The notes beneath the pieces were generated by a model. That model had not been told where the DNA came from, ran no database searches, and was given only the letters and a program-made list of their open reading frames with translations. From positions 53,019-107,608 of the forward strand of contig DF820479.1 in assembly GCA_000739535.1 (NCBI GenBank): DNA of 54,590 nt, in the 5' to 3' direction. Position numbers and translations under genes: made by a program. This DNA comes from Candidatus Vecturithrix granuli. Its GTDB lineage: Bacteria > Moduliflexota > Moduliflexia > Moduliflexales > Moduliflexaceae. Positions 6,724 through 54,590 of this stretch are shown here, piece after piece (within the stretch, counting starts at the first letter, position 1; each line of letters opens with the position of its first letter).

Positions 6724-6761
6724 AAAAAAACCGGGTTTCTTCAGGAAACCCGGTTTTTTTT
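6724..6761 (+). terminator. Rho-independent terminator after giant surface gene
   Basis: An A-run, then a GC-topped stem (CCGGGTTTC / GAAACCCGG) with a short TTCAG-type loop and a run of eight T. It sits 35 bp after the stop of the DUF11 gene. The same stem core recurs at seven or more other gaps in this window. The rest of 6690-7001 holds a candidate promoter and AT-rich sequence only. Confidence 0.85.
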
Positions 6762-13624: not shown

Positions 13625-13673
13625 GGAGTGCGAAAGCTCTGCTTTCGCTGTCAAAGCAGAGCTTTGACACTCC
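13625..13673. repeat. Solo copy of the GGAGTG...CACTCC palindromic core
   Basis: An inverted repeat with a CTCTGCTTTCG / CAAAGCAGAG core, just before the DapF-like gene. The same core lies inside the larger element at 36215-36335 and in the partial copy at 54524-54590. Here the outer AGAAGCTGTTTTAAAAG arms are missing, so it is either an independent inner unit or a decayed copy. Confidence 0.8.
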
Positions 13674-20859: not shown

Positions 20860-20892
20860 AAAAACCGGGTTTTTTGAAGAAGCCTGGTTTTG
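20860..20892. terminator. Diverged copy of the ACCGGGTTTTT hairpin
   Basis: AAAACCGGG / CCTGGTTTT with a GAAGAAG-type loop, one mismatch in the stem. It lies in the 365-bp gap 20718-21082, far from either gene end, so it may be a dispersed repeat rather than a working terminator. Confidence 0.5.
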
Positions 20893-21082: not shown

Positions 21083-22309
21083 ATGAAATATCAATATCCA
21101 TTCTTGATATTTTATCCGGAGGATTTGTCCAGAAATATGCAATCGTTTATTGGAAAAACGAGTGAAGAGATCCGAATATATCTCTCAGCACATCAACTGC
21201 TTCATGCCTTAGAAGAGCAAATCAGGTTCCCACTGATGCCATTACCCGATAATTTTACCGCTCCCACGCGTACGCCCTGGGGAGGAACAAAAATTCTGGG
21301 AAAATATAAACAAGGTCTATCAATCCGTGCCGAGAAACATTATCCGATTGTTGGAGAATCCTGGGAAATCTCGGCTGATCCGGCAGCCCCGTGCCAGTTT
21401 TATTTTGTTCTGGAAACAGAAACCATTCTGGTGGATTTGATTCAACTTCTTGATCTTTTCCCGGAAGCGATTTTAGGGGAAAAGGTTGCCGCACAATTTG
21501 AAGGGCAAAACCCAATTCTGGTAAAACTGTTGGATGCCGCAGATCACCTTTCAGTGCAGGTTCATCCTTCCGACAGCTATAAGGGCTTAGGCCCAGATGA
21601 ATCCGGCAAACCGGAAAGTTGGTATATTTTGGAAGCTGATCCCGGATGTGGTTTGTTTTTCGGTCTCAAGGAAGGGGTTTCAGAAGCTGAGTTACGCCAG
21701 GCCATCGAACACCGGAAAGATGTGTCACAATATTTGAATTTTGTGGAAGTGAAACCTGGCGATTTCTTCGTGATTGCCGCCGGGACAATTCATGCTATCG
21801 GAGCAGGTGTGACCTTAATTGAACCGCAAAAAATTGCTCCCAAAAAGAGCGGCAGAACCTATCGAATCTGGGATTGGAATCGCCTGTACGATAAGCGCGG
21901 AAATTTAAATTCTGAAGGTAAACCTCGGGAACTGCACATTGAAGATTCCCTGCGAGTTATTGATTTTGATGCGCCTCGTGGTGAAGCATTTATCCGCCAT
22001 ATCCAGCCGGAACGGCAGATCGTACAACAATATGGGGAGAGCGTGGAAACGTTGTGCATGGAAACAGAAGATTTTGGAGTAAGACAGCTCGTTCTGCAAA
22101 ATGGACAAACATTGTCGGGAGATTGTTCCTCAGGCTTTCATGGCTTGATAGTCTATGAAGGTGAACTTGACATTCGCTCGCAGAAAAATACGTTAGCCAG
22201 GGTCAAATGCGGCCAATCGGCAATTTTGCCGGCTGCATTACAGACCTACGAACTAAAAAGCCCGCACGCCCGGGCAATCAAAGTGTATTATCCCATCCAA
22301 TATCTTTAA
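21083..22309 (+). CDS. manA: Class I mannose-6-phosphate isomerase
   Basis: 408 residues from 21083. ATG 21137 has a GGAGG 14 bp upstream and is a credible alternative; the family-like part starts near TRTPWGGTKILGKY. Zinc and active-site blocks are seen: VQVHPSD (zinc ligands Gln and His), KPESWYIL, VKPGDFFVIAAGTIHAIG, and the arginine-containing GRTYRIWDWNR. It interconverts fructose-6-P and mannose-6-P and supplies GDP-mannose for glycans. It is the first gene of the glycan cluster 21-27.5 kb. A terminator-like hairpin follows at 22336. Confidence 0.9.
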   Translation: MKYQYPFLIFYPEDLSRNMQSFIGKTSEEIRIYLSAHQLLHALEEQIRFPLMPLPDNFTAPTRTPWGGTKILGKYKQGLSIRAEKHYPIVGESWEISADPAAPCQFYFVLETETILVDLIQLLDLFPEAILGEKVAAQFEGQNPILVKLLDAADHLSVQVHPSDSYKGLGPDESGKPESWYILEADPGCGLFFGLKEGVSEAELRQAIEHRKDVSQYLNFVEVKPGDFFVIAAGTIHAIGAGVTLIEPQKIAPKKSGRTYRIWDWNRLYDKRGNLNSEGKPRELHIEDSLRVIDFDAPRGEAFIRHIQPERQIVQQYGESVETLCMETEDFGVRQLVLQNGQTLSGDCSSGFHGLIVYEGELDIRSQKNTLARVKCGQSAILPAALQTYELKSPHARAIKVYYPIQYL

Positions 22310-22335: not shown

Positions 22336-22373
22336 GGTAAAAACCGGATTTTCCGAAAAACCCGGATTTTTAC
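22336..22373 (+). terminator. Hairpin of the ACCGG family after manA
   Basis: GGTAAAAACCGG / CCGGATTTTTACC stem starting 26 bp after the manA stop. It is one member of the dispersed family of near-identical hairpins. Confidence 0.6.
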
Positions 22374-22547: not shown

Positions 22548-22677
22548 GAAAAAGTGGTAGTGGTTAAATAGTAAGTGATGCCCGCTCGTTGAGCGAAGTC
22601 GAAACGAGCCGCTCACTGTTCCCTTCGACTTCGCTCAGGGAACGCATCACTTACTATTTAACCACTACCGAAAAAGT
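22548..22677. mobile_element. MITE-like element with 8-bp direct repeats
   Basis: A 114-bp unit (22556-22669) ends in perfect inverted repeats of about 26 bp (GGTAGTGGTTAAATAGTAAG and complement). It is bounded on both sides by GAAAAAGT (22548-22555 and 22670-22677), as expected for a target-site duplication. Inside are GAGCGAAGTCGA / TCGACTTCGCTC palindromes, also found in the elements at 34502 and 41321. There is no coding capacity, so a transposase must act from elsewhere. Confidence 0.82.
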
Positions 22678-22717: not shown

Positions 22718-22763
22718 ATCTAAAAAAACCAGATTTTTCAGAGAAACCTGGTTTTTCAGATTT
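22718..22763. terminator. ACCAGATTTTT hairpin
   Basis: AATCTaAAAAAACC / GGTTTTTCAGATT long stem with a short loop, related to the ACCGGGTTTTT family. It is not directly behind a gene. Confidence 0.5.
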
Positions 22764-22975: not shown

Positions 22976-24100
22976 ATGGAAGTACCATTACTCGATTTAC
23001 AAGCGCAATATGCGACGATCCGCGACGAAATTCGACCTGTAGTTGATCAGGTCTTAGAAAGTCAGCGATTTATTCTTGGGCCGGAAGTTGAAGCTTTTGA
23101 GCGAGAAGTTGCGCACTATTGCGGGACAAACTATGCAATAGGCGTGTCTTCCGGGACAGATGCCTTATTGATTGCCCTGATGGCCGCCAAAATTGGCAAT
23201 GACGACGAAGTGATTACCACGCCGTACACGTTTTTTGCCACTGCTGGTTCCATCTCTCGCATTGGGGCCGCGCCGGTGTTTGTGGACATTGATCCCAAAA
23301 CGTATAATATCAATCCAGCCTTGATCGAAGAAAAAATTACGGCAAAAACCAGAGCAATTATTCCGGTACATCTGTACGGACAGTGTGCCGAGATGACGCC
23401 AATTCTGGAACTTGCCGAAAAATATCATCTTATCGTGATTGAAGATGCAGCCCAGGCCATTGGCGCAGAATACGGTGGGATACCAGACGGAAAATCCTAT
23501 CGAGCTGGAAACATGGGGACATGCGGTTGTTTCAGTTTTTTCCCCTCAAAAAATTTAGGAGGTTTTGGCGATGGCGGCATGGTGACAACCAATGATGAAG
23601 CGTTTGCCAAACGCATCAAAGATTTGCGGACCCATGGAGGGAAAGATAAGTACCGCAATTATTTGATTGGCATGAATGGTCGGCTTGATGCGCTTCAAGC
23701 GGCCATCTTGCGCGTGAAACTCCGCCATCTTGATGCGTGGAGTCAGGCGCGGCGCGTTCATGCGCAGTATTATAATGAGGCTTTTCGTTTGCTCGAAATC
23801 GTTCAAATTCCCTATACTGAACCTGGAAATGTTCATATTTACAATCAATATATCTTGCGCCTACCACAACGCGATGCCTTACAAACCTATTTGAATGAAC
23901 ATCACATAGGGAATGCGATTTATTACCCCATTCCACTGCATTTGCAAGAATGTTATACTCATTTAGGGTATGCTGTGGGAGATTTCCCGGAATCGGAAAA
24001 AGCCGCGCAAGAAACTATCGCGCTTCCAGTATATCCTGAACTTTCGCAAGAACAGCAAGATTACGTCATAGAGACGATCCGGAAATTTTATCAATCATAA
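22976..24100 (+). CDS. DegT/DnrJ/EryC1 family sugar aminotransferase
   Basis: 374 residues, full length. It begins EVPLLDLQAQYATIRDEI. The PLP-lysine block SFFPSKNLGGFGDGGMV is at about 184-200, preceded by VIEDAAQAIGAEY (Asp binding the pyridine ring). SSGTDALLIAL is the phosphate-side block. The family transaminates nucleotide-linked keto-sugars (for example dTDP- or UDP-linked) for surface glycans. The substrate cannot be told from sequence by eye. GGA lies before the ATG. It is part of the 21-27.5 kb glycan set, followed by a lipid-carrier transferase. Confidence 0.92.
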   Translation: MEVPLLDLQAQYATIRDEIRPVVDQVLESQRFILGPEVEAFEREVAHYCGTNYAIGVSSGTDALLIALMAAKIGNDDEVITTPYTFFATAGSISRIGAAPVFVDIDPKTYNINPALIEEKITAKTRAIIPVHLYGQCAEMTPILELAEKYHLIVIEDAAQAIGAEYGGIPDGKSYRAGNMGTCGCFSFFPSKNLGGFGDGGMVTTNDEAFAKRIKDLRTHGGKDKYRNYLIGMNGRLDALQAAILRVKLRHLDAWSQARRVHAQYYNEAFRLLEIVQIPYTEPGNVHIYNQYILRLPQRDALQTYLNEHHIGNAIYYPIPLHLQECYTHLGYAVGDFPESEKAAQETIALPVYPELSQEQQDYVIETIRKFYQS

Positions 24101-26274: not shown

Positions 26275-27458
26275 AAGAGCGTGCTGAAAAAATTCGCGTT
26301 CTGCGCCTGATTGCCCGCTTAAACGTTGGCGGCCCCGCAATTCATACCATCCTGCTTACCAAACTGCTGGCACCGGAAAGATTTGATTCAACTCTTGTCG
26401 CCGGTCAGATTGCACCGACAGAAGGCGATATGTCGTATCTGGCACAGGAACATGGGGTTAAACCGTTGATGATCTCGGAATTGGGGCGTGAAATCCAGTG
26501 GAAAAGCGATCTGACGGCGTTCTGGAAAATTTTTCGTCTGATGCGCAGGCTTCGTCCGACCATTGTACACACGCATACGGCCAAAGCCGGAATGTTAGGA
26601 CGATTGGCCGCGAAATTGGCGGGCGTCCCGGTGATTGTGCACACCTTTCACGGCCACGTGTTCCACAGCTATTTCAGCCGTTCCAAAACTCAGGCCTTTC
26701 TCTGGATTGAACGGATGCTTGCCAGAATGTCGGATGCCATTATTACTCTCAGCCCGACCCAACGGGCAGAAATTTTAGGCTACGGCATTGGCTGCCCTGA
26801 AAACGTCCATGCCATTGGTTTAGGGCTGCCGTTAGACTCATTTGTGGCGTGCGCTGCGTTGCGCGGTCAGTTACGCCAGGAGCTTGGCATCCCTCAAGAC
26901 ACACCGTTAATCGGCATTGTGGCCCGTTTAGTGCCGGTCAAAGGGCATAATTATTTTCTCGAAGCCGCAAAATATGTGCTCGCAACTTTTCCTTCAGCTC
27001 GTTTTATCGTGGTCGGCGATGGCGAATTACGTGCAGAACTTGAGCACAATGCCGAGATCACAGGCATCAGCAAGCAGGTGTATTTTCTCGGATTTCGCCG
27101 GGATCTGCCGAAAATTTACGCTGATCTGGATGTCGTTGCGCTTTCCTCCTTGAATGAAGGATTGCCAGTGACCTTAATCGAGGCCATGGCGGCGGCAACG
27201 CCTGTGGTTGCCGCCCAGGTTGGCGGTGTAGAAGATTTAGTTGTGCCTGAGAAAACCGGAATCTTAGTCTCTCCGAAAGACAGCCGCGCTCTGGCTGACG
27301 GTATATGCCGGGCATTTGCACTGACTCCACAGCAACGACAAATAATGGGGGAAGCCGGACGAACCAGCGTGTACCCACGTTATCACATCTCCACGCTTGT
27401 CAGCAATATTGAAACCTTATATCAGAATTTGCTGCATCGAAAAACCGAGTTTTTTTGA
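26271..27458 (+). CDS. GT4-family glycosyltransferase
   Basis: 395 residues, GT-B fold. The N-terminal acceptor domain starts VLRLIARLNVGGPAIHTILL and holds HTHTAKAGMLGRLAA and HTFHGHVFHSYF. The C-terminal donor domain has GIVARLVPVKGHNYFLEAA, FIVVGDGELRAELE and the nucleotide-binding SSLNEGLPVTLIEAMAAATPVVA. It transfers an activated sugar to a lipid-linked or other acceptor in the cytoplasm. The last six codons and the stop lie inside the terminator hairpin. The start overlaps the HEPN stop by 4 bp, giving translational coupling. Confidence 0.92.
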   Translation: MKERAEKIRVLRLIARLNVGGPAIHTILLTKLLAPERFDSTLVAGQIAPTEGDMSYLAQEHGVKPLMISELGREIQWKSDLTAFWKIFRLMRRLRPTIVHTHTAKAGMLGRLAAKLAGVPVIVHTFHGHVFHSYFSRSKTQAFLWIERMLARMSDAIITLSPTQRAEILGYGIGCPENVHAIGLGLPLDSFVACAALRGQLRQELGIPQDTPLIGIVARLVPVKGHNYFLEAAKYVLATFPSARFIVVGDGELRAELEHNAEITGISKQVYFLGFRRDLPKIYADLDVVALSSLNEGLPVTLIEAMAAATPVVAAQVGGVEDLVVPEKTGILVSPKDSRALADGICRAFALTPQQRQIMGEAGRTSVYPRYHISTLVSNIETLYQNLLHRKTEFF

Positions 27459-27475
27459 AAAACTCGGTTTTTTTC
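27440..27475 (+). terminator. Terminator overlapping the GT4 stop codon
   Basis: AAAACCGAGTTTTT / AAAAACTCGGTTTT stem with a TTG loop and a T-run. The TGA at 27456-27458 is in the loop. The hairpin core is identical to the one at 38271-38305. Confidence 0.88.
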
Positions 27476-34501: not shown

Positions 34502-34651
34502 CATTCTTGCTTATATAAGACATCCTAAGTCAATTATGTCTCGACTTCGCTCGACAACCGCCCGGTCACTGAGCGAAGCGGTGTTCTGAGCGGTGTCGAA
34601 GGATCGAAGTGACATGACACCAATGAGTTAGGATGCCTATATACCATTCTT
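34502..34651. mobile_element. MITE-like element with imperfect ends and CATTCTT flanks
   Basis: The end pairs CTTATATAAGACATCCTAAG and CTTAGGATG-like TTAGGATGCCTATATA are diverged inverted repeats. CATTCTT occurs on both flanks (34502-34508 and 34645-34651), a possible 7-bp target duplication. The interior has the TCGACTTCGCTCGA / GAGCGAAGCGG core of the elements at 22548 and 41321. It occupies the 369-bp gap 34437-34805. Confidence 0.65.
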
Positions 34652-36214: not shown

Positions 36215-36335
36215 AGAAGCTGTTTTAAAAGTCCATGCAACGGGCATTTCGAGAGAGGTGAACAGGAGTGTCAAAGCTCTGCTTTGACAGCGAAAGCAGA
36301 GCACTCCTCACCTGCAAACTTTTAAAACAGCTTCT
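36215..36335. mobile_element. 121-bp MITE-like element with AGAAGCTGTTTTAAAAG ends
   Basis: Perfect 18-bp terminal inverted repeats (AGAAGCTGTTTTAAAAGT and complement) enclose the CACTCC / GGAGTG palindromic core also found at 13625. The left interior (36233-36255) differs from the right, so the copy is not fully symmetric. No clear target duplication is visible. It fills the upstream region of the lipoprotein gene, whose ribosome site AGGGAGG begins right after the right arm. Confidence 0.85.
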
Positions 36336-38270: not shown

Positions 38271-38305
38271 AAAAAACCGAGTTTTTTTGAAAAACTCGGT
38301 TTTTA
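38271..38305 (+). terminator. ACCGAGTTTTT hairpin after the ferredoxin gene
   Basis: AAAAAACCGAGTTTTTTTG-type arm and AAAAACTCGGTTTTT, the same core as at 27440. It lies 52 bp after the stop at 38219. Confidence 0.8.
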
Positions 38306-41320: not shown

Positions 41321-41453
41321 CCTCCTGGGAGCAGGACTGTTAAGTTCTACACATTTTGTCATCTCGACTCCGCTCGATGACCGAAACACCGCACGTCGAG
41401 CGAAGTCGAGACGCCATTTCTGACGAGAACTTAACAGCCCTGCCTCCTGGGAG
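41321..41453. mobile_element. MITE-like element inserted in another repeat, 11-bp duplication
   Basis: The unit 41332-41442 has ends CAGGACTGTTAAGTTCT / AGAACTTAACAGCCCTG (one mismatch) and the TCGACTCCGCTCGA / TCGAGCGAAGTCGA core. CCTCCTGGGAG occurs immediately on both sides (41321-41331 and 41443-41453). Joining the flanks restores ATTCCCCTCCTGGGAG followed by a GGGTAAAA-type tail, as in the intact repeat at 43397-43490. Confidence 0.85.
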
Positions 41454-46905: not shown

Positions 46906-46928
46906 CCGCCATCACCAGAATCGGATAG

Positions 46929-46958
46929 AAACCGGGTTTTTTCGAAAAACCCGGTTTC
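46929..46958. terminator. Shared terminator between tatA and polA
   Basis: AAACCGGGTTTTTTCG / AAAAACCCGGTTT hairpin lying just before the polA stop (46959-46961 in the minus sense). It can serve both convergent genes. It belongs to the dispersed ACCGGGTTTTT family. Confidence 0.8.
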
Positions 46959-54523: not shown

Positions 54524-54590
54524 AGAAGCTGTTTTAAAAGTTTGCAGGTGAGGAGTGCGAAAGCTCTGCTTTCGCTGTCAAAGCAGAGCT
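54524..54590. mobile_element. Partial MITE copy cut by the window end
   Basis: 67 bp from the AGAAGCTGTTTTAAAAG end through GCAGGTGAGGAGTG into the CTCTGCTTTCG core, in the inverse orientation to the right half of 36215-36335 with near-complete identity. The remainder of the element lies outside the window. Confidence 0.85.

Follow-up and report, generated by a model that had tools for sequence, protein, structure and literature searches.

Candidatus Vecturithrix granuli carries an abundant hairpin-cored MITE family that is probably mobilised in trans by an IS1-family transposase

Introduction

Bacterial MITEs such as Chunjie, QMITE2, MITEAba12 and others are short, non-coding elements with inverted ends and a strong hairpin, associated with 7-9-bp duplications and AT-rich intergenic targets (PMC10969869, PMC6382973). 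The 114-bp element described here resembles Chunjie, QMITE2 and MITEAba12 in size class, ends, duplication, targets and hairpin. It differs from bacterial MITEs generally in that its ends are probably of the IS1 type and its core is common to two other MITE-like families of the same host.

Single-ORF IS1 elements, here represented by those of a Ktedonobacter (L161), of a Deltaproteobacteria MAG (L162) and by ISSru3 of Salinibacter, have ends that likewise start with GGTAG(T/C)G. The 25-bp termini of L161 and L162 are near-identical to those of the element, and several members of the single-ORF family show 8-bp duplications, as it does. In contrast to them, the element is geneless, 114 bp instead of ~750-870 bp long, and equipped with a hairpin core. 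This core, a pair of short hairpins that is also found alone or in tandem arrays, recalls the REP/BIME repeats, whereas the mobile unit has DDE-type inverted ends and 8-bp duplications.

A literature search turned up no IS1-derived MITE that carries this core, and a search for its 12-mer TCGACTTCGCTC returned nothing. What is new here is the fit of the ends and the 8-bp duplication to the IS1 family; the family is new, but elements of its type are well known. An abundant repeat of a KSB3 (Modulibacteria) genome for which we found no description can now be assigned, with probability, to a transposase family on target-site evidence.

Host genome and assembly

The window is the whole stretch of DNA analysed, 54,590 nucleotides of contig DF820479.1 (positions 53,019 to 107,608 of the forward strand). 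The host assembly comprises 21 contigs and 8,384,694 bases, with one contig of 597,372 bases. Bin UASB270 is listed as Candidatus Vecturithrix granuli ("Vecturathrix" in the table) of the phylum KSB3/Modulibacteria, with a scaffold count of 21, a total length of 8,384,694 bp and an N50 of 597,372 (PMC4312070, Table 1).

The UASB270 assembly was scaffolded with mate pairs (PMC4312070), which probably explains the runs of N contained in several element copies; assembly gaps fall inside the hairpin elements. Apparently longer elements with the same ends (297, 426, 470 and 530 bp) were rejected as full-length transposons, as they contain N runs flanked by repeated element sequence, and most likely represent gaps of the mate-pair scaffold assembly (PMC4312070). 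A 371-bp copy (C20:146905-147275) turned out to be a copy of the 114-bp type with a nested palindromic repeat (ends near GTGAGTTCGGGATAAG).

Structure and setting of the element

In agreement with the first-pass annotation, which had described a unit with perfect inverted ends between identical 8-bp repeats, the terminal arms of 26 nt each are 100% complementary, and the same 8 bp are found on either side (Table 1). The interior consists of two separate hairpins nested in the long terminal stem, with the TCGACTTCGCTC 12-mers placed in opposite orientations in the loop region of hairpins 1 and 2. Folded as a single strand, the element reaches -43.9 kcal/mol, compared with a mean of -12.6 for shuffled sequences (z -12.3). 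Compared with a consensus built on the 42 copies aligned first, it has one deviating base.

According to the ORF listing of the region, no ORF of at least 60 aa overlaps the 114-bp element. Its neighbours, with names read from the translations only, are genes for a mannose-6-phosphate-isomerase-like protein (21083-22309) and an aminotransferase-like protein (22976-24100).

Table 1. Features of the element and of related elements in the window (window coordinates).
Feature	Position	Strand
Left target-site duplication copy, GAAAAAGT, 8 bp	22548..22555	.
Family A MITE, non-coding, 114 bp	22556..22669	+
Left terminal inverted repeat, GGTAGTGGTTAAATAGTAAGTGATGC, probable IS1-type end	22556..22581	+
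Core hairpin 1, GCTCGTTGAGCGAAGTCGAAACGAGC, with complement of TCGACTTCGCTC at 22591-22602	22584..22609	+
Core hairpin 2, GTTCCCTTCGACTTCGCTCAGGGAAC, with TCGACTTCGCTC at 22625-22636	22618..22643	+
Right terminal inverted repeat, fully complementary to the left one	22644..22669	-
Right target-site duplication copy, GAAAAAGT, 8 bp	22670..22677	.
MITE-like family C element, ends near CATCCTAA.../...TTAGGATG, TCGACTTCGCTC in core	34525..34628 (approximate)	.
MITE-like family B element, ends GCAGGRCTGTTAAGTTCT, pair of TCGACTTCGCTC 12-mers in core	41331..41443	.

Copy number, target sites and empty sites

Allowing up to three mismatches, the family A end sequence has 245 matches in the genome (125 + 120), dispersed across most host contigs, while the reversed control has none. 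These ends correspond to about 120 elements with matching ends and varied flanks. Of the 30 best-matching copies, 21 are bounded by exact 8-bp duplications, and their flanks differ. For non-redundant elements the count is 36 of 55, with 36 different duplication sequences, where none would be expected from randomly re-paired flanks; shared long flanks, which would point to duplication with the surroundings, were not found. In a larger set of 87 elements the 8-bp duplication is exact in 54 and has one mismatch in 9 more, while exact duplications of 7 bp and 9 bp occur in 0 and 1 of them, respectively. The other 24 of the 87 copies, with neither an exact nor a one-mismatch duplication, could have lost it by decay or recombination.

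The duplications have an A+T content of 73%, compared with 53% for the genome. With the element removed, an ORF of at least 300 nt spans 10 of the 87 insertion sites but 745 of 1000 random sites; therefore, insertions are almost only intergenic. As a side observation, the subfamilies show a substitution asymmetry, C to T in the right arm, made up mostly of shared changes.

Two copies, C4:79004 and C18:185637, sit within other dispersed repeats, and the 80 bp flanking them can be aligned with unoccupied copies of these repeats, 71-72 bp long. These paralogues contain neither the element nor the second 8 bp, and provide for two occupied repeat copies the empty sites that had been proposed as a check. 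Together with the exact 8-bp duplications at many sites, they show, as far as sequence comparison can, the transposase-like insertion with an 8-bp stagger that the first-pass annotation had put forward. The element combines inverted ends, a duplication of fixed length, shortness without a transposase gene, dispersed high copy number and empty sites, as is typical of MITEs.

Of the closest relatives compared, one genome of the same family and two of the same order, none has the element. A search of 59 related genomes did not find the whole element in any other genome, with matches to the core only.

IS1 elements with matching ends

In the IS classification, members of the IS1 family have GG...TG ends and 8-9-bp duplications. 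As this combination suggests IS1, we tested that family. When public genomes were scanned with the family A end sequence, ten loci were obtained, two of which have a second matching end 777 and 797 bp away. The scan used one TIR-like end, and both the second end and the gene lay outside the query. Both elements are from phyla other than that of the host, one from a Ktedonobacter, the other from a deltaproteobacterial MAG, and their ends are identical to the MITE end at 21/26 and 22/26 positions; the chance of a 21/25 match at one given place is ~1e-9. In both elements the single ORF encodes an IS1-family transposase, with scores well over the cut-offs of Pfam PF03400 (24.1 bits; scores 76.6 and 65.3) and of NCBIfam NF033558 transpos_IS1 (100 bits; scores 175 and 173). 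Of the other loci of the scan, four carry a MITE of a 171-bp type, all in one Chloroflexi MAG, and one is an 82-bp MITE from an Anaerolineales MAG, so that miniature elements outside the host are driven by these ends as well.

For a reciprocal sample, ten loci were picked by protein similarity to that transposase alone and read outward to their ends. Inverted ends beginning with GGTAGT or GGTAGC were found at eight of them, and five of the eight are flanked by exact 8-bp duplications (Salinibacter ISSru3, Leptolyngbya, Pseudanabaena, Deinococcus and Kovacikia). The ends closest to the MITE end in this sample are those of Moraxella and Salinibacter ISSru3 (17-20/26 positions), with 19-20/26 identical positions for Moraxella. 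Ends of the form GGnnnTG are common to the MITE, L161, L162, ISSru3 and the Moraxella element. In viral contigs the exact end sequence was absent, and no relatives of the L162 transposase were confirmed there.

The expectation of full-length transposons with the same ends is hence borne out by IS1 elements of other bacteria, but not in the host, where ~1.6 Mb of sampled sequence contains no full-length element with family A ends.

Transposase genes of the host

The host bin has a single IS1 gene, on C14 near 393,839 (L158 1103-3040), and no intact IS1 transposase. The gene has separate insA- and insB-like frames, whose overlap in an A-rich region recalls frameshifting IS1 elements, and its catalytic part contains a single TAG codon. 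GGTAGTGGGTCAAAT precedes the gene and an assembly gap follows it; its ends are diverged, with little resemblance to the MITE end, and a target duplication could not be seen. Because short-read bins readily lose insertion sequences that are present in many copies, the lack of a partner is weak contrary evidence. IS1595 transposases are absent from the host. Its one ISL3 gene lies between ends GGCTCTTCCGTAAAG, with no GGTAGTGG end. Y1_Tnp has 12 matches in the host.

Hairpin core and ends

With at most one mismatch, TCGACTTCGCTC occurs five times in the window (0.29 expected), twice in the 114-bp element and otherwise at ~34.5 kb and 41.4 kb, within elements whose ends differ from those of family A. 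These represent the MITE-like families C and B, respectively, which are also filled by the TCGACTTCGCTC pair at about the same spacing as in family A; the ends of family C lie near GATCCTAAATCATT / TATAGCGATCCTAAATCATT. Within ~1.6 Mb of sequence, window included, 30 core clusters have paired A ends, 10 paired B ends and 8 paired C ends, compared with 10, 5 and 1 of 3000 trials at random positions. Conversely, there are elements of ~174-188 bp in which family A ends bracket a second core unlike the first; these, too, have the 8-bp duplications. As the core occurs in two families with unrelated ends and the family A ends surround a second core, core and ends are separable, which bears out the earlier suggestion that they are separate modules.

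Of 289 genomes searched, 16, one of them the host, contain the hairpin CCTTCGACTTCGCTCAGG, either by itself or in other settings. These MITEs thus carry a hairpin that is widespread. The same hairpins also occur in distantly related genomes. Among 55 aligned copies, divergence from the consensus is 0.2% for hairpin 1 and 1.3% for hairpin 2, compared with ~5% for the ends and 12% for the short stretch between the hairpins. The contrast is weaker for private changes alone, of which there are 23 across 52 end columns and 10 across 53 hairpin columns (p 0.02); constraint on the core should hence be taken as a lead rather than a result.

It is conceivable, though we think it rather unlikely, that the paired TCGACTTCGCTC cassette is itself a module that is under selection or spreads separately, and that MITEs with the ends of at least three different transposon types have acquired it in one genome. 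In that case, it may give MITEs an advantage in replication, stability or regulation. A hairpin core common to differently ended miniature transposons makes it testable whether the success of MITEs depends on an internal cassette and not on the ends only.

More copies of family B were seen at C21 247167-247282, 512835-512952, 1083926-1084041 and other places, often inside another CTCCTTTGGGGAG-type repeat, and more copies of family C at C21 547898-548000, 781084 and 1144414. A further family C locus, C21:998563-999028, has ~9 tandem core units and runs into an assembly gap.

Mode of mobilisation

Very probably, the element belongs to a MITE family mobilised in trans by a DDE transposase of the IS1 family; the assignment to IS1, drawn from the shared ends and the length of the duplication, is probable. 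The acting IS1 transposase would now be missing from the bin as assembled, or the host would have lost it. An enzyme of the IS1 type would bind GGTAGTGGTTAAAT-type ends, and the presumed partner element would itself carry ends GGTAGTGGTTAAATNGTAAGTGATG. The enzyme would cut AT-rich target DNA with an 8-bp stagger and join the 114-bp unit to it, and repair of the gaps would then lead to the 8-bp duplication. The interior is a paired-hairpin cassette that is not tied to the family A ends.

Short ends of the GG type and 8-9-bp duplications are also common to ISL3, IS1595, IS256, ISH6 and IS6, and the MITE might have been moved by an enzyme of one of these families instead. We regard this as improbable, as near-identical ends of full-length elements sit on IS1 elements and, of the two among these families for which the host was searched (IS1595 and ISL3), one is absent and the other is represented by a sole gene with other ends. 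The paired hairpins, the tandem core array, the occurrence of the core hairpins in 16 of the 289 genomes and the Y1_Tnp matches of the host would also suit a REP/BIME-type element in which the hairpin core itself is mobilised by a RAYT (Y1) single-strand transposase. However, Y1 transposition leaves no target duplication, whereas the copies have exact ones of 8 bp, and core hairpins are present at only 3 of the 12 Y1 loci, about as their density alone predicts. For the movement of the 114-bp element this route is therefore very unlikely, although it may account for the origin of the core.

The strong hairpin and the intergenic position could, finally, indicate a non-mobile regulatory or terminator hairpin that was duplicated with its surroundings. 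Against such a reading stand the unrelated flanks, the exact duplications and the empty sites, and convergent neighbours are found for 3 of 26 copies compared with 123 of 994 random intergenic positions, with no orientation bias, which leaves it next to no probability. A secondary effect of the IS1-type MITE on transcription is possible.

Other repeats in the window

Two further dispersed repeats were observed. Copies of a terminator-like hairpin repeat, AAAAACCGGGTTTTTT...AAAAACCCGGTTTT, lie at 6726-6757, 20860-20891, 22338-22369, 22724-22755, 27440-27471, 38272-38303 and 46927-46958, two of them flanking the MITE. A second inverted repeat, GGAGTGTCAAAGCTCTGCTTT..., is found at 13636-13673, 36265-36302 and 54552-54590, with distant copies up to 100% identical.
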